Source: Proteiniborus sp. DW1
Lineage (GTDB): Bacteria; Bacillota; Clostridia; Tissierellales; Proteiniboraceae
Assembly: GCF_900095305.1 (NCBI RefSeq)
Contig: NZ_FMDO01000062.1
Span: forward strand, 1 to 64,000
Length of the DNA stretch: 64,000 nucleotides
Reading direction: 5' to 3'
Shown here: positions 13,820 to 47,095 of the stretch, piece after piece
Layout: every line of letters begins with the position of its first letter
Numbering within the stretch: position 1 is the stretch's first letter
Notes under the pieces: generated by a model
The model's database searches: none
Seen by the model: the letters and a program-made list of their open reading frames with translations, nothing else
Told to the model about the DNA's origin: nothing
Position numbers and translations under genes: made by a program

Positions 13820-13821
13820 TT

Positions 13822-14295
13822 CTACTCCCCTCCCTTTAAATCTTTAGCTGCCTTCTCTACAGCATTTACTATTTTATTATAACCAGTACAACGGCAGAGG
13901 TTTCCAGATATGGCTTCTCTTATTTCACTTCTATTTGGTGAAGAATTTTTATCTAATAATGCCTTTGCTGATAATACCATTCCAGGTATACAGAATCCAC
14001 ATTGAACTGCACCTTCATCTAAAAATGCCTGTTGAATAGGATGTATCTTTTCTCCCTTGCTTAAACCTTCTATAGTAAGTATTTCTTTTCCTTCTGCTTG
14101 AAAAGCCATTACAAGACATGAAGCCACAGTTTCACCATCCATAATTACTGTACATGCTCCACACTCGCCTTCTCCACAGCCTTCTTTTGTTCCTAGTAGC
14201 CCTAATTTATCTCTTAAGACATCTACGAGCCTCATATCTTCTTCGATTTCCACTTTATGAACTATACCATTTACATTAAGCTCTATTTTTTTCAT
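13822..14295 (-). CDS. Xanthine dehydrogenase 2[2Fe-2S] subunit
   Basis: A 157-residue iron-sulfur subunit. The N-terminal plant-type ferredoxin cluster motif GCGEGECGACTV is at about residues 40-51 with a further Cys near 60; the second cluster, in the four-helix domain, shows CGFCIPGM near 98 and NLCRCTGY near 132. It passes electrons from the molybdenum centre to the FAD subunit. It begins 36 bases after the FAD-subunit gene and ends 2 bases before the molybdenum subunit gene, so the four genes form one operon in the order FAD, Fe-S, Mo-N, Mo-C. Confidence 0.93.
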   Translation of the reverse strand: MKKIELNVNGIVHKVEIEEDMRLVDVLRDKLGLLGTKEGCGEGECGACTVIMDGETVASCLVMAFQAEGKEILTIEGLSKGEKIHPIQQAFLDEGAVQCGFCIPGMVLSAKALLDKNSSPNRSEIREAISGNLCRCTGYNKIVNAVEKAAKDLKGGE

Positions 14296-14331
14296 AGCTT
14301 TCCCCTTCCTTCGATTAAATCAACATGTAAA

Positions 14332-15195
14332 TCAAATGTTTTGCCTAATAGCATTATTTAGAGCACTTCTTAATACTCCCTTAATAGCTGAGCTTTTAAA
14401 TTCAACTGTAGACCTTCCAGCTAGTCTTTCTGCAACTTTTTGCTGCATTAGCTTAAGTCCATCTTCGATGACTTCTTCAGTTAAGTTCTTACCTTTAAAG
14501 AATGCTTCAACTTCTCTTTCTCTCATACCAAATCTTCCTAGAGAACCGTTAGCTATTCTGATATTTCTACAAGAGCCATCAATATCAAATTCAGCAAATA
14601 CACTAGTACATATTCTAGAAATAGCTAAAGCTTTTCTAAGTCCTAGTTTACTAAATGAAAGTACTTGTCCTTCACTGGGGTTATCAAACTTCACAGATAC
14701 AAGTAATTCATCATCCTTTAATGCAACCTTTCCTTTATCTAAAAATAACTCTTCTACTTTAACTTCTCTTTGTCCACTCTTGCTTTTTATAACTGCAATT
14801 GCATCTAATGCAAGAAATGGTGGAACTGTATCAGCTGCAGGAGAACCGTTGCAGATATTACCTCCAATTGTACCTTTATTTCTAATCTGAGGTGAACCTA
14901 CAGAATGTGCTGCCTCTTTTAGTCCTGCAAGTCTGCTACTCAATAATTTTGACTCAGCTATTTCCGTAAAGGTAGTAGCTGCACCTATCTCAACTTTATC
15001 TCCTTCCACCTTAATAAATGACATTTCCTTTATACTAGATACATCTATTAAAGCTTCAAAATCCACCTTATGGTTTTTAATCTCTATAACTAAGTCTGTC
15101 CCCCCAGCAATAACTTTACCTTTTTCTTTATATTGATCTAAAAGTTCAACAGCCTCTTCAACAGTATTGGGTTTATGTGCGTATTTTATAGTCAT
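14332..15195 (-). CDS. Xanthine dehydrogenase FAD-binding subunit
   Basis: A 287-residue subunit of the CO-dehydrogenase/xanthine-dehydrogenase FAD family. FAD motifs VIAGGTDLVIEI (about 29-40) and QIRNKGTIGGNICNGSPAAD (about 102-121) are intact; the C-terminal domain shows CRNIRIANGSLG. It hands electrons to NAD(P) or another acceptor. First gene of the four-gene operon. A 370-base upstream gap separates it from the purine permease and should contain the promoter. Order and sizes match those reported for clostridial selenium-dependent hydroxylases, consistent with the selenium-maturation genes at 3-7.6 kb. Confidence 0.92.
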   Translation of the reverse strand: MTIKYAHKPNTVEEAVELLDQYKEKGKVIAGGTDLVIEIKNHKVDFEALIDVSSIKEMSFIKVEGDKVEIGAATTFTEIAESKLLSSRLAGLKEAAHSVGSPQIRNKGTIGGNICNGSPAADTVPPFLALDAIAVIKSKSGQREVKVEELFLDKGKVALKDDELLVSVKFDNPSEGQVLSFSKLGLRKALAISRICTSVFAEFDIDGSCRNIRIANGSLGRFGMREREVEAFFKGKNLTEEVIEDGLKLMQQKVAERLAGRSTVEFKSSAIKGVLRSALNNAIRQNI

Positions 15196-15565: not shown

Positions 15566-16885
15566 TTATAGGAAAATATATTTTAATATAAACAATACTG
15601 ATAATATATAAACAACTGGTGATACTTCTTTTCCTCTTCCAGCTATAAGCTTTAACACTGCATATGATACCATACCAAATACAATACCTTCAGCAATACT
15701 ATATGCTATTGGCATCATAATAATAGCTAAAAATGCTGGTATAGCTTCTGTATAGTCATCAAAATCAACCTTTAATACAGATGACATCATAGATAATCCA
15801 ACTAATATAAGTGCTGGTGCAGTAGCTGCTCCTGGAATTATACCAAATATTGGTGCTAGGAATAATGCAAGTAAGAATAATATAGCTGATGTTAGTGCAG
15901 TAAGTCCTGTTCTACCACCCTCAGAAACTCCTGATGCACTTTCAACAAATGTTGTAACTGTACTTGTTCCTAATAGTGCTCCTGCAGTAGTTCCTACAGC
16001 ATCTGCAAATAATGCTGGTTTAACTCTTGGTAAAGTTCCATTTTCATCAAGCATATCAGCTTTTGATGCAACTCCAACTAATGTTCCTATAGTATCAAAC
16101 ACGTCTACAAATAGGAATGTAAATATTACTATTAACATATCAAGACTAAATATATTTGAAAAGTCAAGCTTAAAAGCTACTGAAGCTAGTGAAGGAGGCA
16201 TTGAGATAAAACTACTTGGTAGCTTTGTAACTCCTAAAGGTATAGCAATAATTGTAGAAGCTAAAATACCTATTAGCATAGCCCCTTTAACTTTTTTGTG
16301 TAGAAGAATACCTGTTATTATAACTCCTAAAATAGTTACTATAGCTGCTGGTTGTGTAAGGTCTCCTAATTTTACTAATGTAGCTGGATCTCCTACGATA
16401 ATACCTGCACTTTGGAATCCTAGGAAAGCTATAAATAGACCAATACCTGCTGAAACTGCATTCTTTAAGTTCATTGGTATTGCATTTACTATTGCTTCAC
16501 GTACATTAACAAAGGACATTAATATGAAGATAATACCTTCTATAAATACTGCTGTTAATGCAAATTGCCATGAATAACCCATAATACCACAAACTGTGAA
16601 TGCAAAGAAAGCATTTAATCCCATACCAGGTGCTAATACAAATGGATAATTAGCATAGAAAGCCATTATTAGAGTAGCTATTGCTGCTGATAATGCTGTA
16701 GCAGTAAAAACTCCACCCTTATCCATACCTGCTGCTGAAAGCAAATCTGGGTTTACAGCTAAAATATAAGCCATTGTCATAAATGAAGTAATACCAGCAA
16801 TGATTTCTGTTTTAACATTTGTCTTATTCTCGCTTAGCTTAAAAGTCTTTTCTAAAAAACCTGTTTGAGCTTTACCGTTACTCAT
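15566..16885 (-). CDS. NCS2 purine permease (AzgA/PbuG type)
   Basis: A 439-residue integral membrane protein of the nucleobase-cation symporter-2 superfamily, AzgA-like branch for adenine, hypoxanthine and guanine. It begins with KTEIIAGITSFMTMAYILAVNP, a hallmark of this branch, and carries GMGLNAFFAF and DTIGTLVGVASKADML. About 13 hydrophobic segments are visible. The start follows a GGGGG-type ribosome-binding site. It lies between the xdh operon and the BMC-associated deaminase gene, fitting uptake of purine bases for fermentation. The exact base transported cannot be read from sequence. Confidence 0.92.
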   Translation of the reverse strand: MSNGKAQTGFLEKTFKLSENKTNVKTEIIAGITSFMTMAYILAVNPDLLSAAGMDKGGVFTATALSAAIATLIMAFYANYPFVLAPGMGLNAFFAFTVCGIMGYSWQFALTAVFIEGIIFILMSFVNVREAIVNAIPMNLKNAVSAGIGLFIAFLGFQSAGIIVGDPATLVKLGDLTQPAAIVTILGVIITGILLHKKVKGAMLIGILASTIIAIPLGVTKLPSSFISMPPSLASVAFKLDFSNIFSLDMLIVIFTFLFVDVFDTIGTLVGVASKADMLDENGTLPRVKPALFADAVGTTAGALLGTSTVTTFVESASGVSEGGRTGLTALTSAILFLLALFLAPIFGIIPGAATAPALILVGLSMMSSVLKVDFDDYTEAIPAFLAIIMMPIAYSIAEGIVFGMVSYAVLKLIAGRGKEVSPVVYILSVLFILKYIFL

Positions 16886-17241: not shown

Positions 17242-19056
17242 TTACCTAACTACTGGATCAAGTATTTCAAAGTTATCTACGTCAAGTAAGCCTTTGTCGC
17301 TTATTTTCCATTTTGGACTTGTAGATAAAGCTAAAAACGAAACGTGCATAAATGGAGCATGTAACGTTCCACCTAGCTGATTTTTTACAGTTGCCTCTAA
17401 AGCTGCTATTTTAGCACTTACTTCTGGACCAGTTAATTCATCTGTTATAAGTCCTCCAACTGGAAGTGCTAGTTCATCTAATATTCTACCATTATTAGCT
17501 ACAGCAACTCCGCCGCCCATTTCTATAACTCTATTTACAGCAACTACCATGTCTCTTAAATTAGTTCCTGTTACTGTTATATTATGCGTATCATGGGCAA
17601 TTGACTGAGCAAATGCACCTTGCTTCAATCCAATTCCTTTTACCATTGTCTTACCGATGTTTCCATTACGTCCATATCTTTCTAAGTTGGCTAAGTATAT
17701 TACGTCTTGGTTGACATCAGCTTCTACTACACCTCTATTAACTCTAACTTGAGCTTCACCAGTTCCTGTTAGGTTTTGATCAGGTATAGCCTGGATATAT
17801 CTAACTGTAGCAGTATTTCCCTCTGCCCTAATTTCTAAATCTGCTTCAGTAATAGGCGCTCTTTTCACTGAGTTTTTAACTACATCAGGATAAGTGTATT
17901 TTGGTAAATCTATTAATAGCTGTCCCTGTGAAGCTACTAATTGTCCTTTTATAAATACAGCCTCTACAGTCATTTCTTTAAGGTCACTGATAACAGCTAT
18001 GTCTGCTACTCTTCCTGGTAAAAGAGCTCCTCTATCATCTAGACCCCAATAAGTTGCAGGGTTGATTGTTGCCATTTGTATAGCTTCTATTGGGTCTACC
18101 CCTTCTCTTATTGTTCTTCTGATAATATCATTCATATGACCATATTTTTCTAAGTCCTCTGCAACCATGTCGTCTGAAACTAAGATAAGTCTTCTTGAAT
18201 CTAGTCCCTCTTCAGTCACAGCTCTTATACATTCAGCCATATTTCTTTGAGTAGAACCTTCTCTCATAAATACATATACGCCCTGTCTTAGCTTTTCAAT
18301 ACACTCTTCCTTAGTTGTTGTTTCGTGGCAGGAACAAGTTCCACCACAGCATATTATGTGAGCTGCTAAGTCAGCACCAAATAATTCCGGAGCATTCCCA
18401 TCAACTGGCTTTCCTAAACTCTTAGCATAAGTAGTTGAAGTCAATAAGTCTGTTATTATTTCTGGTGTATTTTTATATACATGCTTAGCAAGAGAAAATC
18501 CTTGTAGTTCTCCTATACCGAATATGTTTGGATAATTTAATAAGTCCTCCATATCCTTAGAATTTACATCAACACCTGCTGTCTCTAAACTTGGAGCATC
18601 AGGGGTTAAAGCTGGAACTTGTAGTCTTACATAGTTTGGTACTACATTACATTCGTCGGCCATAGCCTTCATAGCTACTGGTCCCAATGCATTACCTATT
18701 TCATGTGGGTCAGCTATTAAAGTTGTTGTACCAGAAGGTATAGATAATCTAGAAAACTCAGTAATAGTCAACATACTACTTTCAAAGTGCATATGTGAAT
18801 CCATAAATCCTGGTGATAGATATAAGCCTGTTACATCTACTACCTTTGTATCTGGTCCTATTAGTGATTTACAATCACCAACAAGTAGTATATAGTCTCC
18901 CTTTATAGCTATATCTGCTGTGTACACTTCTCTAGTTATTACATTTATCACATTACCGTTGTGAAGTACTATATCAGCAAAGTGTTTATCTGACATAAGT
19001 ACATCTATTAACTCTCTATATTCTATTGCTCTTTTTACATCTTGTGGCTTTAGCAA
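17242..19056 (-). CDS. BMC-associated adenine-deaminase paralogue (candidate 4-aminoimidazole deaminase)
   Basis: A 604-residue amidohydrolase of the Ade family, last gene of the shell operon (21 bases after the BMC-P gene). Metal motif HMH is at residues 88-90, ADPHEI near 115-120, SCHETTTKEE on strand 6 and VSDDMVAED for the strand-8 Asp. The strand-5 motif that is DGHGPE in the true Ade of this window is DGNAPEL here: the metal-ligand His is Asn221. This loss of a core ligand, the longer N-terminus and the position inside a BMC operon argue that it is not an ordinary adenine deaminase. The pathway needs a deaminase for 4-aminoimidazole, chemically analogous to adenine deamination. That assignment is inference; adenine deaminase remains the default alternative. 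Confidence 0.8.
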   Translation of the reverse strand: MLKPQDVKRAIEYRELIDVLMSDKHFADIVLHNGNVINVITREVYTADIAIKGDYILLVGDCKSLIGPDTKVVDVTGLYLSPGFMDSHMHFESSMLTITEFSRLSIPSGTTTLIADPHEIGNALGPVAMKAMADECNVVPNYVRLQVPALTPDAPSLETAGVDVNSKDMEDLLNYPNIFGIGELQGFSLAKHVYKNTPEIITDLLTSTTYAKSLGKPVDGNAPELFGADLAAHIICCGGTCSCHETTTKEECIEKLRQGVYVFMREGSTQRNMAECIRAVTEEGLDSRRLILVSDDMVAEDLEKYGHMNDIIRRTIREGVDPIEAIQMATINPATYWGLDDRGALLPGRVADIAVISDLKEMTVEAVFIKGQLVASQGQLLIDLPKYTYPDVVKNSVKRAPITEADLEIRAEGNTATVRYIQAIPDQNLTGTGEAQVRVNRGVVEADVNQDVIYLANLERYGRNGNIGKTMVKGIGLKQGAFAQSIAHDTHNITVTGTNLRDMVVAVNRVIEMGGGVAVANNGRILDELALPVGGLITDELTGPEVSAKIAALEATVKNQLGGTLHAPFMHVSFLALSTSPKWKISDKGLLDVDNFEILDPVVR

Positions 19057-19077: not shown

Positions 19078-19362
19078 TTACTCACTAATAAATTCCTTAT
19101 ATACATCCATATTATCTACTATGCCTACAATAGCAGCGTCTATTGCAGAGTTTTTCTTATCTGCCGCATTTCTTGATGCAGTGCCTGTTGCGAAAATCAC
19201 TACTTCACCTATACCTGCACCTACTGTATCTACTGCTATTAGTGGCTTTCCTGAAGGCTTAGAATCTATGTCAATAGGTTGTGTTATTAAAAGTTTACTC
19301 CCTACTAGACTTTCGCTTTTTCTTGTTGCAACTACCGTACCTACAACTCTGCCTAATTGCAT
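19078..19362 (-). CDS. BMC-P pentameric shell protein (EutN/CcmL family)
   Basis: A 94-residue protein of the EutN/CcmL family that forms pentamers capping the vertices of bacterial microcompartments. The start MQLGRVVGTVVATRKSESL and the LLITQPID, AVDTVGAGIGEVVIFATG and SAIDAAIVGIVD blocks are diagnostic. It sits between the flavoprotein and the deaminase paralogue. It is the only pentamer gene in the window, enough to close an icosahedral shell together with the BMC-H proteins. No alternative identity is likely. Confidence 0.95.
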   Translation of the reverse strand: MQLGRVVGTVVATRKSESLVGSKLLITQPIDIDSKPSGKPLIAVDTVGAGIGEVVIFATGTASRNAADKKNSAIDAAIVGIVDNMDVYKEFISE

Positions 19363-19379: not shown

Positions 19380-20219
19380 CTAATGTCCCTTGACTATTTT
19401 AATTCCTAGCTCTTTTGCCCTGTCATATGCTAGAGGAGTTATAATTGATCCTATAGGTACAGTCACTTCATTGTTGATGGTTTTCATGTTAATTAAGTCT
19501 TTTTCAGTTATAACCTGACGCGTACTATGGCTTTCTCCAGCAACTGTATTTTGTGAGCTTTGCCCAGTAACAGTAGTGGTTTCGTCCATTGGACTGTCTC
19601 TGAAGACATTTAACATCTCTAACACATAATCTTTCTTATCAACGCTTTTTATTCCCATCATCTGAAGTTTTTCTACGTAATCATTCATTATTTGCTGGAG
19701 CATTGGTACTTTAGATCTGTTCCCCCTATAAGCAAGTACATTGCTAAAGTCCATAAGTATCTTCTTGCCATGCCATAGCCCCTGCCATAATAAAGTTGAT
19801 ATAAAACAATCCTGTATACCTAAGGCTAGTTTAGTAGCAGTGTCTTGGGTCAGCATAGGTACTATAATACCGTCTACACTTTCTAAAATTTCGCCAAAGA
19901 TTAATTTGTCCTTTTGTGTATAAACCTTATCTGTTTGTAGGGTAGATTTTATAGAAGCTATTCCTTGCTCACCAATAATTTCTTCCCCATTTTCAGTTAA
20001 GGCAATATCAAAAGTAAAACCATAGCGCCTTGCTTTTGAAAGTTCCCTAAGTGACTCATTTAGTCCAAAGTTAGTTCCTGTAAATACGGCTAAAATATGC
20101 TGATTTACATAGTCTTGTGGCTTACATCTGAAATCGGCTCTTTCCTTTGGACTATGACCACCATTTAATTTTTGCACCAGTTGACTAATTATGTCACTGG
20201 TTTGGTTGTATTTTTCCAT
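19380..20219 (-). CDS. BMC-operon flavoprotein with encapsulation-type N-terminus
   Basis: A 279-residue protein. The core (about residues 30-200) looks like the flavoprotein superfamily of UbiX, phosphopantothenoylcysteine decarboxylase and dipicolinate synthase subunit B: AVFTGTNFGLNESLRE near the N-terminus and LLWQGLWHGKKILMDFSN later. Residues 5-19 (NQTSDIISQLVQKLN) form a short amphipathic helix before a Gly-Gly linker, the layout of BMC encapsulation peptides. A Ser/Thr-rich linker (about 210-235) leads to a C-terminal domain with VPIGSIITPLAYDRAKELGI. Flavoproteins of this kind occur in several BMC loci with unknown roles. It might bind FMN or deliver prenyl-FMN to UbiD. Function not assigned. 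Confidence 0.7.
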   Translation of the reverse strand: MEKYNQTSDIISQLVQKLNGGHSPKERADFRCKPQDYVNQHILAVFTGTNFGLNESLRELSKARRYGFTFDIALTENGEEIIGEQGIASIKSTLQTDKVYTQKDKLIFGEILESVDGIIVPMLTQDTATKLALGIQDCFISTLLWQGLWHGKKILMDFSNVLAYRGNRSKVPMLQQIMNDYVEKLQMMGIKSVDKKDYVLEMLNVFRDSPMDETTTVTGQSSQNTVAGESHSTRQVITEKDLINMKTINNEVTVPIGSIITPLAYDRAKELGIKIVKGH

Positions 20220-20283: not shown

Positions 20284-20562
20284 CTATTCGTAGTTTTTAA
20301 GAATCACTCTTTCAACTTCTGAGTGTGGTCTTGGAATTACATGTACTGAATGTAACTCTCCTACTGCTCTTGCAGCTTCTGCACCAGCATCTGTTGCAGC
20401 CTTAACAGCACCTACATCTCCTCTCACCATAACTGTTACAAGACCAAAACCAATTTTATCATATCCCACTAAAGTAACATTTGCTGCTTTAACCATAGCA
20501 TCTGCTGCTTCAACAGCACCTACTAAACCTTTAGTTTCTACCATACCTAACGCTTGACTCAT
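20284..20562 (-). CDS. BMC-H hexameric shell protein (canonical)
   Basis: A 92-residue single BMC-domain protein nearly colinear with PduA/EutM/Ccm[43 protein letters not shown] and [11 protein letters not shown]. The loop lining the hexamer pore reads KIGFG, where propanediol shells often have KIGSG, so the pore is lined by a bulkier residue. It follows the extended BMC-H gene by 19 bases. Likely the main facet tile. No paralogue-specific extension is present. Confidence 0.95.
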
Positions 20563-20581: not shown

Positions 20582-20977
20582 TTACTTTGTAGTTGTCTTT
20601 TTTTTACTTTCTTCAGTATTAGCTTTTTTATCTTCATTTTCCTCTTTTTTTGATTCAACTTTTTGGTTATCTTTCTTAGATTTTAAGTTCTTTTCAAATA
20701 TTGAAATTAATCTATCTACTTCTTCATGTGGTCTAGGTATCACATGACCAGATACAACTTTACCAACTCTATTGCCAGCAGACACTCCAGCTTCAACAGC
20801 TGCCTTAACTGCGGCTACTTCACCTGCAATGTTAATAGTAACACTTACAAGCTTATCTACACCAATTACCTTCTCAACTCCTACAAGCTTCACATCTGCT
20901 GCCTTACTTGCAGCATCTAATGCTGTAATGGCTGCAGTTAATCCAACTACCTCGATTAATCCAAGAGCTGATTTCAC
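20582..20977 (-). CDS. BMC-H shell protein with charged C-terminal tail
   Basis: A 131-residue protein. Residues 1-90 are a BMC-H domain (LGLIEVVGLTAAITALDAAS, AVKAAVEAGVSAGNRVG, HVIPRPHEEVDRLI). The pore-loop region reads EKVIGVDKLVSV and lacks the usual glycine pair, so the pore is probably distinct or occluded. Residues about 95-131 form a Lys/Glu-rich disordered tail that could project from the shell or bind cargo or nucleic acid. Codons of the tail are AAA/GAA-rich. Domain identification is secure; the role of the tail is unknown. Confidence 0.93.
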   Translation of the reverse strand: MKSALGLIEVVGLTAAITALDAASKAADVKLVGVEKVIGVDKLVSVTINIAGEVAAVKAAVEAGVSAGNRVGKVVSGHVIPRPHEEVDRLISIFEKNLKSKKDNQKVESKKEENEDKKANTEESKKKTTTK

Positions 20978-21002: not shown

Positions 21003-21542
21003 CTATAGTAAGGAGCCCTTTTTTCCTATTGAGTTCAAAGAAACCTTAGGAATATAAGCTTCTAAATTGTTTATTACTCCTGTTTTTACATATACATCTT
21101 TCGTATTTTGTTGTTGCGCTACTTGATTATCTACAGTACTTACTTGATTGTTTGATTTTTTCACCTTGCTAGCTAAGTCATTTAGAGTCATCATAGTGTT
21201 TGATTTGTTGTCAATAGAATTACTGTTTTTCGGCTTTACATTTCCTTTAACTAAATCTTCAAGCCTAACTTTCTCGAATGTATTTACTCCACTGTTATAC
21301 TCTGCTGGCTTAGATACTGATTTAGATGCTCTCTCAGATAATGAATTAAGAGTATCTAAAGTTCTAGAAGGTCCAGTAGCTTTTCCTAAATTCTTATTCA
21401 TAACATTCAGTAGTAGTTGTTCGTCTTTTTGTCCTAATCCTGATATAGAATAAGTGTTTTTTGCAGAATTACTTCTTGTCTCGTTTATTTTACTACCTTG
21501 AGTAATGTTATTCATAATCACCCTTGCCAACGGGTTAGCCAT
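21003..21542 (-). CDS. Disordered protein between shell genes, candidate BMC scaffold
   Basis: About 179 residues, no family recognised. I start at the ATG at 21542 because GGGTGGTGA just upstream is a good ribosome-binding site; the upstream GTG codons lie inside that site. The chain is rich in Asn, Ser, Lys and Thr, and has no predicted fold. Short amphipathic helices are spaced along it: residues 3-16 (NPLARVIMNNITQG), 40-53 (DEQLLLNVMNKNLG), 92-99 and 118-129, plus a final NNLEAYIPKVSL block. Its place between BMC-H genes and the pattern of short helices joined by flexible linkers recall carboxysome scaffold proteins such as CsoS2 and CcmN. It may link cargo to shell. Inference only. Confidence 0.6.
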   Translation of the reverse strand: MANPLARVIMNNITQGSKINETRSNSAKNTYSISGLGQKDEQLLLNVMNKNLGKATGPSRTLDTLNSLSERASKSVSKPAEYNSGVNTFEKVRLEDLVKGNVKPKNSNSIDNKSNTMMTLNDLASKVKKSNNQVSTVDNQVAQQQNTKDVYVKTGVINNLEAYIPKVSLNSIGKKGSLL

Positions 21543-21561
21543 TTTATTCACCACCCTTTAG

Positions 21562-21828
21562 CTAATCTAACATTTTATCTACTTCGTCATGAGGTCTAGC
21601 AATGACATTTGTAGATATAATTTCAGCTAAGCCCTTTACTACTTCTGTTGCGTTATCAACGGCTGCTTTTACTGCTGCTACTTCACCTGATACTATTACA
21701 GCAACGACTCCAGAGCCGACAAAGTTCACATCAACTATGTGTACATCAGCTGACTTAACCATAGTATCAGCTGCCTGGATAGCAGCCACTAAACTTCTGG
21801 TTTCTACCATACCTATGGCCTGTCTCAT
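21562..21828 (-). CDS. BMC-H hexameric shell protein
   Basis: An 88-residue single BMC-domain protein: AIGMVETRSLVAAIQAADTM, FVGSGVVAVIVSGEVAAVKAAVDNA and NVIARPHDEVDKML. The pore segment reads NFVGSG, different from the other two BMC-H proteins in the operon, suggesting that the three tiles pass different small molecules. It lies 19 bases after the UbiD gene and directly before the disordered protein. The tight coupling to UbiD supports the view that the decarboxylase is cargo. Confidence 0.95.
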   Translation of the reverse strand: MRQAIGMVETRSLVAAIQAADTMVKSADVHIVDVNFVGSGVVAVIVSGEVAAVKAAVDNATEVVKGLAEIISTNVIARPHDEVDKMLD

Positions 21829-21847: not shown

Positions 21848-23212
21848 TTATTTTTTCATTCCTGGGAAATATTTTTGAATATCTATTTTCCCCTCAAATC
21901 CAGGAATCACTGCCATTTCATAAAAATGTGCTTTCTCACCTAAAGGCTTTGTAGCATCGATTCCCATTTTATCTGTAACTCCACGAGCCACATGGGATGC
22001 TTCTAATCCTGAACCTAAAGCTCCTGGAACTATTACCACATCCTGTGAAGCTTGAACTCTAGAAGCTAGTGCATGCTCTACACTTTTTACATTATATATA
22101 TCAACATCTTCATCTACTATTACCACATGCTTAATATCATAAAATGCACCAAGTGCGCCTAATATTGCAGACTTGCCATCTCCTTCTTTCTTCTTGCTTA
22201 TAGAAATAATAGCATGTAATCTGCATCCTCCGCCAACAGTTATGTTTACATCCTTTACATCTACCATGTTCTTAAGAGCCGCATATAGTTCTGCTTCTCT
22301 AATAAGCCCATTAGCAAGATGTTCCTCTCTACAAGGGAAGGCATGTTGGAATATAGGGTTATTTCTATGCATAATAGTCCTTACTTCCATAACTGGATTT
22401 GGGGCAACATCTCCATAGTAGTTCATTAATTCACCAAATGGTCCTTCAACTTCTCGCCTATTTGGAACTAATACTCCTTCGAGAACCATCTCTGCATATG
22501 CTGGAACTTCTAAATCAACAGAGTGGCATTTTACAAGCTCAAGAGGTTCACCCCTTAAAGCACTATCAACCTCATACTTGTTAAGACCATACTTTCTAGA
22601 GCCTATTTGAGATGCTAGAAGGAAAGTTGCATCATAACCAAGTACTACTGCACACTCTAACGGTTTATTCATTTTTTCAAACTCTGCAAATTGCTCCCTT
22701 AGTGCAGGAGAATGACCAGATATAAGTGCATTTATAATATTTCCTTTATGGACTTGAAATCTTCTAACTGCCATATGTGTATAACCTGTTTCAGGCTCTC
22801 TTACTATGAGCATACCTGCTGTTATGAAACTAGATGCATCTTTTTCATGAGAAGTAGGTACTGGTAACATTCTTTGTATATCAATATTTCTAGTAATGAT
22901 ATTTTCTTTTATTGGCCCATTACTTACTAACTTTGCAGGTTGAGGATTTGCTATTGCATTCATGTATTTAAATATTCTTTCTTCTGGTGTAGTATCGGTC
23001 ATCATGTAATAGAGTTCTCTATTTCCATAAAGCCCTCCTACTACAGGCATATCGTATCCTTTTACTCTGTTAAACAGTATAGGCTTTTCATTTTCAAAAT
23101 ATCTTAATACTGCTCCTAGTTCATATTTAGGATCTACTTCTACATTACATACTTCTAGCTCGCCAAGCTGCTCTAGCTTACTTAGAGTAGCCCTTAGCAT
23201 TTGTTTTTCCAT
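21848..23212 (-). CDS. UbiD-family decarboxylase (candidate 4-amino-5-imidazolecarboxylate decarboxylase)
   Basis: About 454 residues of the UbiD superfamily, whose members use prenylated FMN for reversible (de)carboxylation of aromatic or unsaturated acids. Conserved features are REPETGYTHMAVRRFQVH (cofactor-binding region) and VEGPFGELMNYYG, which carries the active-site Glu residues. I start at the ATG at 23212 because GGAAGGAGGGAG lies immediately upstream; the longer frame overlaps UbiX. Encoded between ubiX and the BMC genes. In the clostridial imidazole pathway 4-amino-5-imidazolecarboxylate must lose CO2, and this is the only decarboxylase in the cluster. The substrate is inferred from the pathway. 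Confidence 0.87.
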   Translation of the reverse strand: MEKQMLRATLSKLEQLGELEVCNVEVDPKYELGAVLRYFENEKPILFNRVKGYDMPVVGGLYGNRELYYMMTDTTPEERIFKYMNAIANPQPAKLVSNGPIKENIITRNIDIQRMLPVPTSHEKDASSFITAGMLIVREPETGYTHMAVRRFQVHKGNIINALISGHSPALREQFAEFEKMNKPLECAVVLGYDATFLLASQIGSRKYGLNKYEVDSALRGEPLELVKCHSVDLEVPAYAEMVLEGVLVPNRREVEGPFGELMNYYGDVAPNPVMEVRTIMHRNNPIFQHAFPCREEHLANGLIREAELYAALKNMVDVKDVNITVGGGCRLHAIISISKKKEGDGKSAILGALGAFYDIKHVVIVDEDVDIYNVKSVEHALASRVQASQDVVIVPGALGSGLEASHVARGVTDKMGIDATKPLGEKAHFYEMAVIPGFEGKIDIQKYFPGMKK

Positions 23213-23232
23213 ACTCTCCCTCCTTCCAAATC

Positions 23233-23787
23233 TTATTCTCCCCATCTTTTTGATATATTATGTTCTATGCCAAGCTGGTCTAACACTCTACCAATAATTG
23301 AACCCACAATATCTCCTATGCTTTCAGGATGATTATAAAAGCCTGGCGTTGGAGGTAATATTGTTGCACCTGCTTGTGCTAGCTTCAACATGTTCTCTAA
23401 ATGTATGGTGCTAAGTGGGGTTTCTCTAGGAACTATAACTAGCTTCCTTTTCTCTTTTATTATAACATCCGCAGCTCTTGTCAACAAATTATCTGACATA
23501 CCATGTGCAATGGATGCTACAGTTTTCATTGAGGAAGGAATAATCACCATTGCATCTGTTTTAAATGAACCACTTGCTATGGGTGCTGCAAAGTTTCTAT
23601 TATCATGATAATAAGTTGCTAACCCCTTTAACTCTTCAAGGGTTACACCACATTCATGTTCAACTACATATTCTCCCATGGTTGTCACTACAAGGTGAGT
23701 CTCTATGTTTAGCTCCTGAAGCACCTTTAAAAGAGCTAATCCATATATGCCACCACTTCCACCAGAGATCCCAACGATTACTCTCAT
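23233..23787 (-). CDS. ubiX: UbiX flavin prenyltransferase
   Basis: About 184 residues of the UbiX/Pad1 family, which attaches a dimethylallyl group to FMN to make the prenyl-FMN cofactor of UbiD enzymes. The N-terminal GISGGSGGIYGLALL is the flavin phosphate loop; VIIPSSMKTVASIAHG and IVPRETPLSTIHLENMLKL are family blocks. I choose the ATG at 23787 with GAGG upstream over the frame start at 23802. It precedes ubiD by 20 bases, so cofactor maker and user are co-expressed. A hairpin-rich 190-base leader separates it from the amidase gene. Confidence 0.92.
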   Translation of the reverse strand: MRVIVGISGGSGGIYGLALLKVLQELNIETHLVVTTMGEYVVEHECGVTLEELKGLATYYHDNRNFAAPIASGSFKTDAMVIIPSSMKTVASIAHGMSDNLLTRAADVIIKEKRKLVIVPRETPLSTIHLENMLKLAQAGATILPPTPGFYNHPESIGDIVGSIIGRVLDQLGIEHNISKRWGE

Positions 23788-23856
23788 ATGACATTTCCTC
23801 ACTTTCTGCTATTGGCCACAAATAAGTATAAGTCATAAATACTTTTATTATTTAGG

Positions 23857-23976: not shown

Positions 23977-24588
23977 TTATTTAACTTTGTTTTCTGGATC
24001 TCCTGCTCCTGCCCATGGATCTAAGCCTTTTTCAAATGCATCGATGTATTCATCTATAGTCATAACCTTTGTGAATATACTTAGGTCAACTAATCCATGT
24101 TGATGTTGTTCTTCTGTTTTTGAGTGAACTCCATCACTTAAAGTAATTACTTTATAAGCATTAGCTAGAGCATCAGCAGCTGTAGATCTAACACATACGT
24201 TTGTCCAAACTCCAGTTACTACCACTGTATCTATGCTTTCCTCTCTTAGGAATAGGTCTAAGTCTGTATGCCAGAATGCACTGTGTCTTCTCTTTTGAAT
24301 TATATATTCACCTTTTTCAGGATATAGTTCTTTTATGAAGTCAGAACCCCAAGTTCCCTTAACAGCGTGAACCGGTCTTACTCTGAAGTCTGCATCATTT
24401 TCTCTATGAGCTTCTTGAACATGAACTAGTTGAACATCGTCTTTTCCTTGAGCATTTCTTTCTCTTACCCATTTAAATAGCTTTTGAAGATTTGGAACTA
24501 TTTCTTCTCCACCTGGGCATCTTAAAGGTGCCTTTTCTCCTATGAAGTCATTTAACATGTCTATAACTACAATTGCGTGTTTTGCCAT
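23977..24588 (-). CDS. Isochorismatase-family cysteine amidohydrolase (candidate ureidoimidazole amidohydrolase)
   Basis: A 203-residue protein of the isochorismatase/nicotinamidase superfamily. The catalytic triad is visible: D10 in VVIDMLNDF, K99 in IIQKRRHSAF and C132 in VTGVWTNVCVRSTAADA. Relatives hydrolyse N-carbamoyl groups (N-carbamoylsarcosine amidase, ureidoacrylate amidohydrolase). It is encoded directly after the hydantoinase-type ring-opening enzyme. In the xanthine pathway the second step removes the carbamoyl group from 4-ureido-5-imidazolecarboxylate, giving CO2 and ammonia, so this protein is the natural candidate. Family certain; substrate inferred. Confidence 0.87.
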   Translation of the reverse strand: MAKHAIVVIDMLNDFIGEKAPLRCPGGEEIVPNLQKLFKWVRERNAQGKDDVQLVHVQEAHRENDADFRVRPVHAVKGTWGSDFIKELYPEKGEYIIQKRRHSAFWHTDLDLFLREESIDTVVVTGVWTNVCVRSTAADALANAYKVITLSDGVHSKTEEQHQHGLVDLSIFTKVMTIDEYIDAFEKGLDPWAGAGDPENKVK

Positions 24589-24692: not shown

Positions 24693-26291
24693 TTAGTATG
24701 TTATTGTTCTAGGTAATACTTGTATACTTTGTCTCTTAACAAATTTACCAAATCCAGGTTTAACCTTGATTCCTCTAATACTTCTAATATGTTGATCTAT
24801 AACCTCTGGATGATTCTTTCTATAGCTATTTTCGTATTCTGCACTGTATAGCTGAGGATATAGATCAAAGTGCTCTTTATATTTTTCTGCTACACCTTCT
24901 GGATAGTCATGAACTAACTTCTTAAGGTCTTCATCAGTCATTTCTGATAGTACGCTAGCATCCTCATCTACATATACTAGATGACCACGAACTATAGTCT
25001 TAACTACTTTTCCCTTTAGCTCCATACCTTCTAGTGGTGTATATCCACACATTGAAGCTTGTTTCTTAGGATCTATAGTCCAAGTCTTATCAAGATCTAT
25101 AATTGTAAAGTCTGCATCTGAACCTATGTTTAAAGCACCTTTCTTTGGATATAGTCCATAGTGCTTAGCAGCATTAGTAGATAGTATATCAACAAGTTTG
25201 CTTAATGAAATTCTTCCTTTATTGTATCCTTCACTTACTATAACAGGAACCATTGTCTCAACACCTGGGATTCCTGGGAATGCTGTCCAGATAGTTGTTC
25301 CTTCTTTTATCTTTTCACTTTCTAGTTCGTATGGAGCATGGTCTGTAGCTATGAAATCTATGCTACCATTTCTAATTCCTTCCCATTGCTCTTCGTTATC
25401 TCTCTTAGTTCTTAGAGGTGGAGCAATCTTAGCGTTTGCACCATGAATTGTCATAGATTCTTGATAATTTAATGTTAGATAGTGAGGACATGATTCTGAA
25501 GTTACATTTAAGCCTCTCTTCTTAGCTTCCCCTACTAATTTAGCACCTATTCCAGTACTCATGTGTACTATGTGTAGTCTAGCTCCTGAAGCTTCTGCAA
25601 AGCTGATTCCTAATTCTATAGCAACCTTTTCAGCTAATTCCATTCTTGCTTCTGCCCATGCTGGACCATCCATTCTTCCTTCTTCTCTGAATTTTTTAAC
25701 ATAAAAGTCACACATAGCGAAGTTTTCAGCATGAATTCCTATTGGAAGGCCTGTCTTAGCAACTGCCTTAAAGCACTCATACATTTCTGGATCAGTAACT
25801 CTTGGATAAGTTGGAACTGAAGGAGTCATGTATACTTTGAAAGCTACTACTCCTGCATCAGCTTGTTCTTGAACATTGTGTAGTCTGTTTTCTCTTACAT
25901 CTTCTCCAGTTACTCCACCCCAAAGTGCAAAGTCAACTAATGCTTGAGGTGCACATAAATCTTTCTTTAAATTTAATTGATCAACGCTTCTTACAGATGG
26001 AACTGAACAGCATGGCATATCTATAACTGTTGTTATTCCACCTGCTGCAGCTGCGGCTGTACCAGTTAAAAAGTTCTCTCTATGTGGGAAACCTTGATAC
26101 ATAAAGTGAGTGTGTGAATCAATACATCCTGGTAAAGTTAAATGTCCGTGAGCATCTATTGTATTCTTTGCTTCTATTCCATCAATACAATCTGTGAAAC
26201 CTGCTATTTTTTCATCTTTAACCAAGATGTTAGTTAATACTGTATAGTCCCCTTGAGGGATTCTAGCATTTTTAAGAATTAAATCATACAT
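24693..26291 (-). CDS. Hydantoinase/allantoinase-type amidohydrolase (candidate xanthine amidohydrolase)
   Basis: About 532 residues of the cyclic amidohydrolase family (dihydropyrimidinase, allantoinase). The binuclear metal site is complete: H60 and H62 in DSHTHF, K152 in VVAFKVYMT (the carbamylated lysine), GIHAENF, LHIVHMST, and the catalytic Asp in FIATDHAPYE. The start at 26291 is set by AGGAGG 9 bases upstream; the longer frame begins in that site. Relatives open cyclic ureides by amide hydrolysis. Xanthine ring opening to 4-ureido-5-imidazolecarboxylate is the first step of the clostridial pathway and the same chemistry. Allantoinase is the main alternative, but no other ureide gene (allantoicase, ureidoglycolate enzymes) is present. 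Confidence 0.87.
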   Translation of the reverse strand: MYDLILKNARIPQGDYTVLTNILVKDEKIAGFTDCIDGIEAKNTIDAHGHLTLPGCIDSHTHFMYQGFPHRENFLTGTAAAAAGGITTVIDMPCCSVPSVRSVDQLNLKKDLCAPQALVDFALWGGVTGEDVRENRLHNVQEQADAGVVAFKVYMTPSVPTYPRVTDPEMYECFKAVAKTGLPIGIHAENFAMCDFYVKKFREEGRMDGPAWAEARMELAEKVAIELGISFAEASGARLHIVHMSTGIGAKLVGEAKKRGLNVTSESCPHYLTLNYQESMTIHGANAKIAPPLRTKRDNEEQWEGIRNGSIDFIATDHAPYELESEKIKEGTTIWTAFPGIPGVETMVPVIVSEGYNKGRISLSKLVDILSTNAAKHYGLYPKKGALNIGSDADFTIIDLDKTWTIDPKKQASMCGYTPLEGMELKGKVVKTIVRGHLVYVDEDASVLSEMTDEDLKKLVHDYPEGVAEKYKEHFDLYPQLYSAEYENSYRKNHPEVIDQHIRSIRGIKVKPGFGKFVKRQSIQVLPRTITY

Positions 26292-26351
26292 TTTTTTACT
26301 TCCTCCTCTTCTTCTATATTTTACCAAGTGTTAGCGTTTTCATGCCTTTTC

Positions 26352-26399: not shown

Positions 26400-28070
26400 T
26401 TAGAACAGTCCAACTATAGTGCCATCTGGAAGTATATCCATCTTGTTTGCTGCCGGCACCTTTGGTAACCCTGGCATTGTCATTACTTCTCCCGTTAGCG
26501 CTACTATAAATCCAGCACCTGCTGATAATCTTAACTCTCTTACTGTTATTGTGAATCCTTTTGGTCTTCCTAAAAGTGATGCGTCATCTGATAGAGAGTA
26601 TTGTGTTTTAGCCATACAAATTGGCATTTTATCTAGTCCTAAATCAGCTAATGTTTTAGCCATTTTTTCTGCACCTTTTGTGAATACTACTCCATCTGCT
26701 CCGTAAACTTCTTTTGCAATCTTTGTAATCTTATCTTTTATTGAAAGCTCTACATCATATAGCGGTTTGAAGTTAGATTCTTTACCTTCTACTACTTCTA
26801 TTACCTTCTTAGCTAATTCAATTCCACCTTCTCCACCATTAGCCCATACATCTGATATAGCTACTTCTGCTCCTGATGCCTTTACTTTTTCAAATACTAG
26901 ATTTAACTCTGCTTCTGTATCTGTCGGGAATTTGTTAATTGCTACTATTGATGGTACTCCAAATTTAGCTACATTTTCTATATGTTTCTCTAGGTTTTCT
27001 AATCCCTTTTCTAGAGCTTCTAGGTTTTCTGCTCCTAAGTCTGCTTTTGCTACTCCACCATGCATCTTAAGCGCTCTTACAGTAGCTACTATAACTGCTG
27101 CCGCTGGCTTTAATCCTGCAAATCTACACTTTATATCAAAGAACTTTTCTGCTCCTAGGTCTGCTCCGAATCCTGCTTCTGTTACTGCGTAGTCTCCTAG
27201 TTTTAGCGCCATTTTTGTTGCTAGTACACTGTTACAGCCATGCGCTATGTTCGCAAACGGTCCTCCGTGAATTAAAGCTGGAGTATTTTCTAGTGTTTGT
27301 ACTAGGTTAGGCTTTATAGCATCTTTTAGTATTAGAGCTAGTGCTCCTGTAGCTTCTAAGTCTTTAGCTCTTACTGGATTTCCTTCCATGTTATATGCTA
27401 CTACCATGTTTCCTAGTCTTTCTTTTAGATCTTCTAGGCTTGTTGCTAAACATAATATAGCCATTATTTCTGATGCTACTGTTATATCAAATCCATCTTG
27501 TCTAGGTACTCCGTCAGCTTTTGCTCCTAGTCCTATTACAATATTTCTAAGAGCACGATCATTCATATCTACTACTCTTTTCCAAACTATTCTTCTTGTG
27601 TCTATATTTAATGCATTTCCTTGATGTATATGGTTATCTAGTAACGCTGCTAGTAGACTATGTGCTGAAGTAATTGCGTGGAAGTCTCCTGTAAAGTGTA
27701 GATTTATGTCTTCCATTGGTACTACTTGTGCGTATCCTCCACCTGCTGCTCCACCTTTTACCCCAAATGATGGTCCTAATGATGGTTCTCTTAATGCTGT
27801 TATAGTCTTTTTGCCTAATTTGTTTAGCCCCATGCTTAGACCAATGTTTGTTGTTGTCTTTCCTTCTCCTGCTGGTGTTGGATTTATTGCTGTAACTAAT
27901 ATTAGTTTTCCATCTGGCTTATCCTTTAGTCTGTCAAATACGTCTAATGACACTTTCGCCTTGTATTTTCCGTATAATTCTAATTCATCATCTAGTATTC
28001 CTATTTGCTCAGCTATTTCTGATATAGGTTTCATTTTAGCTTCTTGTGCTATTTGAACGTCTGTTTTCAC
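26400..28070 (-). CDS. fhs: Formate-tetrahydrofolate ligase
   Basis: A 556-residue protein colinear with clostridial formyl-THF synthetase. The ATP loop [15 protein letters not shown] is at about residues 65-79, followed by [23 protein letters not shown]-type segment near 95-117 and the C-terminal [22 protein letters not shown] signature in shorter form. The start is GTG with AGGAGGAG upstream. In purine fermenters the enzyme runs in the ATP-forming direction from 10-formyl-THF to formate, the main substrate-level phosphorylation. It lies 77 bases after the formiminotransferase gene, which supplies the one-carbon unit. Confidence 0.97.
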
Positions 28071-28147: not shown

Positions 28148-29092
28148 TTATTCCATTAAGTGTGTTTCTAATATTTGGCTTCTTCTAAAACCTTCTAATC
28201 CTAAGTAGTACTCTAGAGAGTTAACTATATATTCTAATTTAACTGGTCCTACTATTTCTGAACCTGTTACTGGAATACCATATCTTTTAGCTTCTTGTTT
28301 TACTAATTCAAATACTCTATATATTGGAGTGTTTGCACAGTCAAACATGTTTACTGATACTACTACTCCTTCTCTCTCTGGGAATTTGATTCCTACTGCT
28401 CTTGTTGTTGAGAATCCACCGCTTGGTCCTCTTACTGCTTTTGCTATTTTTTTAGCAATTTCTACATCTTCTGTTGCTAAGAATACGTTATATGCTGTCA
28501 ATCCTTCTGCTTCTGCGCTTACTATAGTTGCTCCTGCAGTGCTTGAAAGTAGGCCGTCTTTGCTTAGATCAGGTTTTCTTGATTCATATTCTGCTTTTCT
28601 TGATTCGTCATCTTTGATTTCTTCTAGTAAAGCTTTCAATCCTTCATATTGCCCTTTTCTTATGAAAGCTAGCGCTCTTCTTTCTTCTGTTCTTGCATTT
28701 TCTGCTGCAAAGAATATTGGCACACCAGTTCTTTCATGTAATTCTTTACCTATTTCTTCTGCTAATTTAACACATTCTTCTACTGTAATATTTTTGAATG
28801 GGAATAGAGGGATAGTATCTTGAGCACCAATTCTTGGATGTGTGCCCTTTTGCTCTTCCATGTTGATTAATTCTATGGATTTTGCTGCCATATTAAGTAA
28901 TGCTGTCTTAAGAGGTGCTGGCTCTCCTATAACTGTAACTACTGTTCTGTTAAAGTCATGCTCTGGCTCATAACTTACAAGCTTAACTCCTTCTACCTTT
29001 CTAACTTCATCTACTACTGCTTCAATAACTTCTTTTCTTCTACCATCACTAAAATTAGGTACTGCTAAAATGTACTGTTTGTCTAAAGACAT
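28148..29092 (-). CDS. Formiminotransferase (glutamate/glycine type)
   Basis: A 314-residue protein matching the N-terminal transferase half of animal formiminotransferase-cyclodeaminase: AVPNFSDGRRKEVIEAV at the start, then GTHPRIGAQDTIPLFPF, FFAAENARTEERRALAFIRKGQ and GIKFPEREGVVVSVNM. The cyclodeaminase half is a separate gene at 32.3 kb. The usual annotation is glutamate formimidoyltransferase, for histidine breakdown. Here no histidine-degradation gene is nearby and the neighbours are purine enzymes, so formiminoglycine is the likelier donor, as described for C. cylindrosporum and C. acidurici extracts. First gene of the long minus-strand cluster; the start follows AAGGAGG. Confidence 0.92.
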   Translation of the reverse strand: MSLDKQYILAVPNFSDGRRKEVIEAVVDEVRKVEGVKLVSYEPEHDFNRTVVTVIGEPAPLKTALLNMAAKSIELINMEEQKGTHPRIGAQDTIPLFPFKNITVEECVKLAEEIGKELHERTGVPIFFAAENARTEERRALAFIRKGQYEGLKALLEEIKDDESRKAEYESRKPDLSKDGLLSSTAGATIVSAEAEGLTAYNVFLATEDVEIAKKIAKAVRGPSGGFSTTRAVGIKFPEREGVVVSVNMFDCANTPIYRVFELVKQEAKRYGIPVTGSEIVGPVKLEYIVNSLEYYLGLEGFRRSQILETHLME

Positions 29093-29669: not shown

Positions 29670-30365
29670 ATGGGGTTAAAATTAATTGATTTGACTCAAG
29701 ATATTTACGAAGGAATGCCTTTATACGGAATTCATCAGAAAACATTTATTATGACAAATCAAACTCACGAGCAAAGTCAAAAAGCTACTGGAAGCCCAAC
29801 TCTAGGTTTTTATGCAAGAAATCTTCTAATAAGTGAGCACTGCGGAACTCATAGCGATGCTGTCCTAGAATTTAAGCCAGGGGGAGCGGATATTATTGAA
29901 ATGCCTTTAGATTATTTCTGGGGTAGTGCTATCTGCGTAGACCTAAGTCATATAAGATATCCTAACTACATAGAAGTAAAGGATTTAGAAATGGCTGTAG
30001 CGAAATCTGGGCAAACAATTCAAAAAGGTGATATCTTTCTTATGTATACTGGTCTATACAATAGAAGTTATGGTACTCCAGAATATGAAAATTATTATAC
30101 AGGTTTAAGCTATGATGCTGCTAAATGGCTTGCAGAAAAAGGAGTAGTTAATATAGGTGTAGATGCCCCTGCTATAGATCAGACTCCAGACGACTTAACT
30201 TTTGCTGGACATTTAGTATGCGGAGAATATAACATAACTAACACTGAAAACCTATGCAATTTAGATAAAGTAGTTAATAAACGTTTCTTATATTTTGGTC
30301 TACCACTAAGAATCCGTGGAGGTACAGGTTCCCCTATAAGAGCAGTTGCATTAATAGAAGAATAG
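29670..30365 (+). CDS. Cyclase-family metal hydrolase (candidate 4-imidazolonase)
   Basis: A 231-residue protein of the cyclase/kynurenine-formamidase-like family (Zn- or Mn-dependent amide hydrolases). The signature is H57-C-G-T-H61-S-D63-A-V-L-E67-F; the family norm is HxGTHxDxPxHF, so the usual last histidine is Glu67 and the proline is missing. Downstream GHLVCGE and ENLCNLDKV match the second metal/acid region. It is divergent from the purine cluster and shares its regulatory gap. After assigning other genes, the pathway lacks an enzyme opening 4-imidazolone to formiminoglycine; this hydrolase fits that amide-cleaving step. Substrate is inference. Confidence 0.82.
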   Translation: MGLKLIDLTQDIYEGMPLYGIHQKTFIMTNQTHEQSQKATGSPTLGFYARNLLISEHCGTHSDAVLEFKPGGADIIEMPLDYFWGSAICVDLSHIRYPNYIEVKDLEMAVAKSGQTIQKGDIFLMYTGLYNRSYGTPEYENYYTGLSYDAAKWLAEKGVVNIGVDAPAIDQTPDDLTFAGHLVCGEYNITNTENLCNLDKVVNKRFLYFGLPLRIRGGTGSPIRAVALIEE

Positions 30366-30417: not shown

Positions 30418-32091
30418 CTACTTGTTTAATAACTGTTTAATTTTAAGTGCTATTTCTAAGTTAAGTCGGTCGTTGGGATTTTCAAGGTCCATATTAGTTA
30501 TATCTTTTATTCTTTGGATTCTGTATAGAACCGTATTATAATGAGTAAATAGGGAATCGGACATTTTCTTTAAGTTTCCATTGTTGTCAAAATAAGCGCT
30601 AAGAGTCTTAACAAGTTCAGTTGATTTTTTTTCATCATATTCAACTAAAGGTTTTAAAGTAGAGTCATAGAATTTGATTAATTCATTCTCTATGTTATCT
30701 TGACATAATATCTTAAATATACCTAGATTTTCAAAGCTGGTGATTATGTTGTCATTCAATATTCTTCCTGTTTTTATAGCTTTAATTGAATCTAAATAAC
30801 TGTAATTAAAGTTCTCTAGTCCTTCATAGGCTCTTCCAATTCCTATTCGAAAATCTAAATCCTTAAATTTATTAATAATGTCTAAGAAATTTTTATTGAT
30901 TTCTTCTAATAACGCCTCTAATTGTGTATCTTTTTTTAGACATAGAAGTATTTGAATTCTTTCAGTTTTACTTACAACTATTGCATTGAGCCCCATTTGT
31001 TTAATGATGTTTCTTTCAATCAGGTCATGGATTTTTGTAATATGCTGCTGTGTTTGTCCAGATGCCATATCTACCCTTTTAGAGGCTTCATCATTGTTTT
31101 TTATTTTCAAAGTTATGCTTACAAATTTATCCTTCTTACCAAAGTTAAAAAATGATGCTCTCTCTAGTGCCTTCTCTACTCTTCTTTCTTCCAGTGAAAT
31201 CAGGTCATCGAAAAACTCTGATTTATATCTATTTTCAACCTCTTTAACTGAAAGCGCCTTTAATATTTCGAGGGCCATAGTTGTAGATGCAATTTCAAGT
31301 ACAGATAAGTCATATCCTCCTAGGGGAGTATTTGTAGACCAAGCAACTATATGTCCATATATACTGTCCTTAGCAACTATAGGAAATACCATTCTTTTTA
31401 TATATTTTCCTCCTATTAGCTCGTTGCTTTCTTCTAGTTTCTTTTCCTTATATCTCTCTGAAATTGGCGAAAAGCACTTGTCAGCATTCTCAAGTAGAAG
31501 CTCCTTCACTGAATCATCCACAGAGTCAAACTCAATAATTATTTCTTCTGGATATTCAAATCGAACATAGATAGGATTCTTTATACTATCGCTTATTAGT
31601 TTAACTATTTGGCTTGTATTGGCTCCCCTCAACATGGCATCCATAAATTGTTCATATATTTTTTCTATCTTCTTTAGTAGATAAGCTTGCCTATTGAATA
31701 TATCATTAAATAAGGGAGTCATTATATCAGAAAGTGGCGTAGCATAATATAGGTCTATTATAGGAAAGTTTAAATCATCTGCTAAACTTATTACTTCCTC
31801 TGAAAGAGACTCTAAATATGGATATATTTTAATGCCTATACCTGCTAATTTCTTCTTAGCACACTCTTTAATAAGCTTTTTCTGTTCTTCTATATTATCT
31901 TTTTTAAAAGAATAGGCTGTGGTTAATAAAAGCTCGCCTTCATCTACCCAGCTTAAAATATCAGGGTCTGCCATAACATTTACTTTAGATATTGTATTTC
32001 TAATTCCTTTAAACCCTGCTATAAGCTTGCAGTTTTTCATATATTCCATATTTAAAGCATCTTCTATAGTAATACCATTTTGTCTACCCAT
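30418..32091 (-). CDS. pucR: PucR-family purine catabolism regulator
   Basis: About 557 residues. The N-terminal PucR domain (about 10-130; ITIEDALNMEYMKNCKLIAG, DILSWVDEGELLLTTAY) is followed by a GGDEF-like/CdaR-type middle region and a C-terminal helix-turn-helix (LSAYFDNNGNLKKMSDSLF then HYNTVLYRIQRIKDITNMDL) of the PucR HTH_30 type. I place the start at the ATG at 32091, seven bases after GGGGGGG. It lies between two divergent intergenic regions sharing a sequence element and so is the probable regulator of both sides. In Bacillus, PucR responds to allantoin-type intermediates; the effector here is unknown. Confidence 0.93.
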   Translation of the reverse strand: MGRQNGITIEDALNMEYMKNCKLIAGFKGIRNTISKVNVMADPDILSWVDEGELLLTTAYSFKKDNIEEQKKLIKECAKKKLAGIGIKIYPYLESLSEEVISLADDLNFPIIDLYYATPLSDIMTPLFNDIFNRQAYLLKKIEKIYEQFMDAMLRGANTSQIVKLISDSIKNPIYVRFEYPEEIIIEFDSVDDSVKELLLENADKCFSPISERYKEKKLEESNELIGGKYIKRMVFPIVAKDSIYGHIVAWSTNTPLGGYDLSVLEIASTTMALEILKALSVKEVENRYKSEFFDDLISLEERRVEKALERASFFNFGKKDKFVSITLKIKNNDEASKRVDMASGQTQQHITKIHDLIERNIIKQMGLNAIVVSKTERIQILLCLKKDTQLEALLEEINKNFLDIINKFKDLDFRIGIGRAYEGLENFNYSYLDSIKAIKTGRILNDNIITSFENLGIFKILCQDNIENELIKFYDSTLKPLVEYDEKKSTELVKTLSAYFDNNGNLKKMSDSLFTHYNTVLYRIQRIKDITNMDLENPNDRLNLEIALKIKQLLNK

Positions 32092-32133
32092 TTGCATTCC
32101 CCCCCTTAAATTTTTTATATAGCAATCCCTCTA

Positions 32134-41042: not shown

Positions 41043-41046
41043 AGAT

Positions 41047-41487: not shown

Positions 41488-41618
41488 TATGGTGCCTCCT
41501 TAGTTATTTTAAAATATCAATTAAATATCAGTTTTAAAGCTAGAGATATTTATAAACATAAAGAAATAGCTATTATCCAAATTCTTAGAAAATTTTATTA
41601 GTTAATTGCAATAATAAA

Positions 41619-42092: not shown

Positions 42093-42093
42093 C

Positions 42094-46460: not shown

Positions 46461-46461
46461 T

Positions 46462-47094: not shown

Positions 47095-47095
47095 A

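Follow-up and report, generated by a model that had tools for sequence, protein, structure and literature searches.

What does a prFMN-dependent decarboxylase do when its gene lies directly against those of a microcompartment shell? The question is raised by a 64,000-nucleotide stretch of DNA from Proteiniborus sp. DW1 (hereafter the window), in which a UbiD/UbiX pair occupies positions 21848-23787. An earlier note on this DNA had proposed that the pair decarboxylates 4-amino-5-imidazolecarboxylate. The pair is real, with Pfam and NCBIfam matches above cut-off, and the proposed substrate is supported by gene content, phylogeny, catalytic residues and the presence of the system in Clostridium acidurici 9a. 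From this sequence evidence we predict, with high confidence, that the window UbiD, with its UbiX-supplied cofactor, is the 4-amino-5-imidazolecarboxylate decarboxylase of a xanthine-utilisation microcompartment. The accompanying remark that the cluster holds no other decarboxylase agrees with the list of open reading frames (ORFs).

The UbiD ORF (21848-23245, minus strand, 465 aa) is full length and exceeds the cut-offs of all three Pfam domains of the family, the N-terminal PF20695, the Rift-related PF01977 (E = 4.6e-55) and the C-terminal PF20696, as well as that of NCBIfam model TIGR00148. It carries the single PF01977 match in the genome and is thus its sole UbiD. Conservation among orthologues starts at MEKQMLRATL, and residues 1-11 of the predicted structure have a pLDDT below 50; the true start may lie at 23212 instead of 23245. 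In-frame stops reported in some orthologues are attributed to matches that extend beyond the ORFs and are not read as signs of broken genes. The UbiX ORF (23233-23802, minus strand) is also full length, and the ATG at 23787 is its probable start, which fits the end of the pair as first described. It matches PF02441 (E = 2.8e-45), exceeds the cut-off of 108.9 for the UbiX flavin prenyltransferase model TIGR00421 with a score of 246 bits, and aligns over its full length with the flavin prenyltransferases PDB 1sbz (199.6 bits) and 6m8v (195.6 bits); no notable difference from these solved relatives was seen. The second of the two PF02441 matches in the genome is a 397-aa frame, judged by its length to be CoaBC.

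Around the pair, the minus strand is transcribed in the order FTCD_C cyclodeaminase/FchA-like protein (32273-32908, from family matches), PucR-type regulator (30418-32097), formiminotransferase (28148-29092, TIGR02024), formate-tetrahydrofolate ligase (26400-28070, with orthologues in some loci), allantoinase/hydantoinase-like amidohydrolase (24693-26327), isochorismatase-fold hydrolase (23977-24588), UbiX and UbiD. The shell genes, an adenine-deaminase-like amidohydrolase (17242-19056), a purine permease (15566-16885) and xanthine dehydrogenase subunits (11553-15195) follow, and a cyclase-family metal hydrolase (29670-30365, PF04199), with kynurenine formamidase and isatin hydrolase as its relatives in the PDB, lies on the opposite, plus strand. 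The regulator, ligase, permease and dehydrogenase were identified by reading of their sequences, and all of these except the ligase are conserved neighbours; the amidohydrolases and the isochorismatase-fold hydrolase were identified by family matches. The dehydrogenase comprises an FAD subunit (14332-15195), a 2Fe-2S subunit (13822-14295) and a molybdenum subunit that is split into two ORFs with a 4-base overlap (12542-13819 and 11553-12545, all on the minus strand), a split also present in many relatives. A solved relative, PDB 3hb7 (360 bits), matches the isochorismatase-fold hydrolase over its full length; it is presumably an Alkaliphilus metalliredigens protein and was deposited merely as ‘isochorismatase hydrolase’. 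Near the purine cluster, the minus strand at 40578-57361 encodes molybdenum-cofactor proteins (MOSC and two of MoeA type), NuoF/NuoG-like proteins and a molybdopterin oxidoreductase, a set as for formate dehydrogenase.

The shell set adjoining the pair consists of three BMC-H proteins and one BMC-P protein, all encoded on the minus strand. The first BMC-H gene (21562-21828) begins about 20 bp past the UbiD stop; the second (20582-20977) encodes a C-terminal tail, and the third (20284-20562) is the most conserved, with 77-99% identity in relatives. These three account for all PF00936 matches in the genome. The BMC-P gene, for a vertex protein of EutN/CcmL type (19078-19362), was recognized by reading of the sequence, and the intervening ORF (19380-20219, minus strand) has a weak match, below cut-off, to the ethanolamine-utilisation protein model TIGR02536. 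No aldehyde dehydrogenase appears among the ORFs of the cluster. Between the first two BMC-H genes lies a low-complexity protein of 183 aa (21003-21554, minus strand) that has no Pfam or NCBIfam match, is probably disordered and is a candidate shell or cargo scaffold on the strength of homologues in the same position. It has a conserved start, M[AV]NPLARVVMNN, and short TLDELA-like motifs, and its counterparts of 70-260 aa sit between BMC-H genes in most loci. Proteins of 313-332 aa hold this position in Bacilli, and in Carboxydothermus islandicus (locus L136, 11675-12649) it is held by a 324-aa protein that resembles a PduB-type tandem shell protein.

Together, these genes span the steps of the Barker pathway, by which xanthine is broken down to formiminoglycine and glycine. 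Only one step of the pathway, from 4-amino-5-imidazolecarboxylate to 4-aminoimidazole, requires an aromatic-acid decarboxylase. In our proposed scheme, xanthine dehydrogenase would convert purines to xanthine, the hydantoinase-like enzyme would act as a xanthinase, opening the ring to give 4-ureido-5-imidazolecarboxylate, and the isochorismatase-fold enzyme would act as the ureidohydrolase that takes off the ureido group in the step before UbiD. UbiX would prenylate FMN, and UbiD (XauD) would bind the resulting prFMN and convert 4-amino-5-imidazolecarboxylate to 4-aminoimidazole and CO2. The adenine-deaminase-like enzyme, as a 4-aminoimidazole deaminase, would then produce 4-imidazolone, which the cyclase-family enzyme, as a 4-imidazolonase, would open to formiminoglycine, and the formiminotransferase would finally yield glycine and formimino-tetrahydrofolate. 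Isatin hydrolase, itself of the cyclase family, opens a five-membered lactam. The substrate of UbiD is assigned on pathway logic, phylogeny and literature, and its step partly by elimination. As 5-aminoimidazole-4-carboxylate can lose CO2 spontaneously, an enzyme-free background exists.

The closest solved relative of the window UbiD is HmfF (PDB 6h6v), with approximately 44% identity over the whole length and 367 bits. The next PDB enzymes are the indole-3-carboxylate (152 bits) and vanillate/phenolic (150 bits) decarboxylases and Escherichia coli UbiD (136 bits); profile comparison gives 451 for HmfF against 210 for the next enzyme, and the predicted fold is likewise nearest to HmfF (E = 9e-53). 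In our tree, the UbiDs of this locus type (hereafter Xau UbiDs) form one clade (support 100/99) that joins HmfF (86/74), separate from the phenolic-acid decarboxylase ShdC and the polyprenyl-type E. coli UbiD, and when more HmfF-like sequences are included the Xau clade and the HmfF group are adjacent, not nested, and their join is tentative. The HmfF-like gene at L065, a relative without nearby shell genes, groups with HmfF, and no shell genes were found in the stretches read around it or around three further HmfF-like genes (L160-L162). The grouping with phenolic-acid or polyprenyl-benzoate decarboxylases for which the earlier note had suggested looking was therefore not seen, in the tree or in the scores. 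Kinship with HmfF could still mean that the window UbiD is an HmfF-type furan decarboxylase or a phenolic-acid decarboxylase that neighbours the shell by chance and stands outside purine breakdown. We give this almost no credence: the Xau UbiDs are a clade of their own and lack a Mn2+-binding Asn that HmfF and eight other UbiDs possess, the same purine gene order recurs in 94 distinct loci, reading of the cluster showed no furan genes, and the equivalog models score far below cut-off (261 of 650 for VdcC and 158 of 788 for UbiD). Phenolic-acid, polyprenyl-benzoate and furan-decarboxylase roles were each ruled out by tree, scores and neighbourhood.

The preferred imidazole-acid substrate is compatible with family chemistry. 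The substrate of HmfF, furan-2,5-dicarboxylate, is a heteroaromatic acid, and the UbiD enzyme PA0254, whose prFMN forms an adduct with imidazole, has a slow decarboxylase activity on imidazole-4-carboxylate (1.3% conversion), which makes imidazole-acid chemistry accessible to the UbiD family. The catalytic machinery of the window enzyme is intact: R162, E267, E272 and L414 correspond to Fdc1 R173, E277, E282 and L439, conserving the E-R-E network and the Leu. The first three residues are invariant in 120 of 120 aligned orthologue rows, which include duplicates of 94 distinct sequences, and L414 is present in 119, the remaining row being gapped. A second pair of residues, R316 and R342, is kept in all 120 rows and corresponds to HmfF R304 and R331, which we take to hold the far carboxylate of furandicarboxylate. 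Such a pair would suit a substrate that bears a polar group on the side away from the departing CO2, as expected if UbiD acted one step earlier, on 4-ureido-5-imidazolecarboxylate, and left a decarboxylated ureidoimidazole to the isochorismatase-fold enzyme. This order of steps is very improbable. The HmfF group keeps the same Arg pair, which is thus no substrate marker, and two loci (L129 and L135) keep UbiD without a close ureidohydrolase orthologue in place; the classical enzymology of C. cylindrosporum, by Rabinowitz and Pricer in 1956, is also said to have decarboxylation following ureido removal. The equivalents of HmfF R304, R331 and H296 were accordingly rejected as a substrate marker as a set, with the HmfF group keeping them and Bacilli having Arg or Lys at the His.

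Although the Xau UbiDs share whole-length similarity, fold, E-R-E network and the R304/R331 pair with HmfF, they depart from it and its relatives at the cofactor site. In Fdc1, Mn2+ is bound by N168, H191, E233 and K391 (PMC4947166). The Asn at the N168 position, matched both by alignment and by its offset from the catalytic Arg, is replaced (by Y, F, H, L and others) in 120 of 120 Xau orthologues, whereas each of the nine UbiDs compared from outside this group has it. The His of the H191 column is absent in 113 of the 120, and the Glu equivalent to E233 is retained; HmfF and its relatives keep both the Asn and this His, which lies in a PRH motif. In the window UbiD the two sites of loss are H157 and A181, and an Arg (R161) and a Lys (K223) that are invariant in all 120 rows take positions at which six other UbiDs have H, Q or Y and Glu, respectively. 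We do not treat the Mn2+ ligands as defining membership of the UbiD family, since its domains and catalytic residues are present. With the Asn missing clade-wide and the His nearly so, the Xau cofactor site differs from that of studied UbiDs; the pattern suggests a changed cofactor-phosphate site in which side chains may replace the metal.

Is the link to the shell general? A single-sequence UbiD query of the genomes returned no relative, whereas a query with a 14-sequence alignment returned 159. Relatives came from two sources: 199 genomes near that of the window, 50 of them with a match at an E-value no higher than 1e-40, and public genomes, whose scan contributed 80 of its 159 loci. After removal of duplicates, these sources give 94 distinct UbiDs. 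These loci extend across Clostridia and Bacilli to Carboxydothermus and one Synergistales genome. BMC-H genes lie within 4 kb downstream of UbiD in every one of the 94. UbiX is the immediate upstream neighbour in 93, among them all loci whose sequence extends 700 bases or more beyond UbiD on that side. Among distinct loci, the other neighbours are nearly as constant: BMC-P in 80/80, the adenine-deaminase-like gene in 77/77, the hydantoinase-like (xanthinase-like) gene in 77/81, the isochorismatase-fold (ureidohydrolase-like) gene in 85/88 and the cyclase-family gene in 51/54. The earlier description of a decarboxylase coupled to shell genes therefore stands, with a BMC-H gene adjoining UbiD, but not its view of the coupling as unusual; in loci of this type the two regularly occur together.

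We infer that UbiD and the deaminase reside in the shell lumen, where 4-aminoimidazole would be kept in. For UbiD this placement rests on gene order, because no encapsulation peptide was seen on it by eye. Its termini, moreover, coincide in the alignment with those of HmfF, an enzyme without a shell, as might be expected if UbiD and UbiX decarboxylated the imidazole acid in the cytosol, with only the later enzymes inside and the gene order reflecting shared regulation. We regard a cytosolic site as rather unlikely, given that a shell gene directly follows UbiD in all 94 distinct loci, including reduced variants that lack the xanthine-opening enzyme.

There are three such reduced loci: L129 (Synergistales), L135 (Neofamilia, also seen as L064) and L159 (genome G230). 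All retain UbiX, UbiD, the shell, the deaminase and the cyclase-family enzyme. None has the hydantoinase-like gene, and xanthine dehydrogenase is missing from the stretch read in each. Additional genes in L129 and L135 encode a transporter of the AbgT family and an M20 amidohydrolase; those in L159 encode a solute-binding protein of TRAP type, a carbon-nitrogen hydrolase and an isochorismatase-fold enzyme that is 70% like its window counterpart. Both hydrolases are also missing from a fourth locus, L106, but it lies on a MAG contig that ends shortly past the shell genes. The losses affect early steps and so support the assignment of xanthine opening to the hydantoinase-like enzyme and of imidazolone opening to the cyclase-family enzyme; with three loci having UbiD and no xanthinase-like gene, UbiD need not always serve xanthine. 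Tentatively, then, the Xau UbiDs may be a subfamily in which the cofactor-phosphate site has been rebuilt with Arg161 and Lys223 in place of metal, and which forms with the deaminase and shell a core module that retains 4-aminoimidazole and accepts exchangeable entry enzymes. These would be the xanthinase in most loci, the AbgT-type transporter with the M20 hydrolase in L129 and L135, and the TRAP-type importer with the carbon-nitrogen hydrolase in L159, some compartments thus starting from a compound other than xanthine. This composite proposal is possible, but we hold it with less than even confidence.

The decarboxylation step of uric-acid fermentation has been known since the 1950s. A 2023 abstract by Tong et al. 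in Cell Chem Biol reportedly names four hydrolases and a prFMN-dependent decarboxylase, and the imidazole-acid decarboxylase role is said to have been shown in that year. The UbiD/UbiX assignment is thus right but already known, and with the gene assignment in the literature, the remaining value of this locus lies in a prFMN enzyme without the usual Mn2+ ligands and in what feeds compartments that lack a xanthine-opening enzyme. Neither the loss of Mn2+ ligands nor the reduced Xau loci were found in the available literature, and a search joining microcompartment, prFMN/UbiD and xanthine found no publication. C. acidurici 9a, the classic uric-acid fermenter, whose genome paper of 2012 failed to locate the genes of this pathway, has the same cluster (L033), with a UbiD 81% identical to that of the window; our analysis places a gene on its decarboxylation step, for which that paper had no candidates.

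The window cluster matches the predicted xanthine-utilisation (Xau) microcompartment (Ravcheev 2019, PMC6620236), in which the decarboxylase is XauD at step 4, and BUF1, which is the same locus type (Axen 2014; Sutter 2021). Common to all are the aromatic-acid decarboxylase, two ring-opening hydrolases, amidohydrolases, formimidoyltransferase, xanthine dehydrogenase and shell genes; in the window, the shell occurs with UbiD, the deaminase, both ring-opening hydrolases and the formiminotransferase, and BMC-P is recognized by reading of the sequence. Judged by gene order only, the ring-opening roles of XauA and XauF seem the reverse of those that we assign. A passage of a 2025 paper credits Tong et al. 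2023 (PMID 37164019) with identifying the xanthinase pathway cluster in Clostridia and Bacilli; as described there, the pathway is the same as ours, and those two classes match the spread of window-type loci. The gene order of the window cluster is that of its Alkaliphilus relatives.
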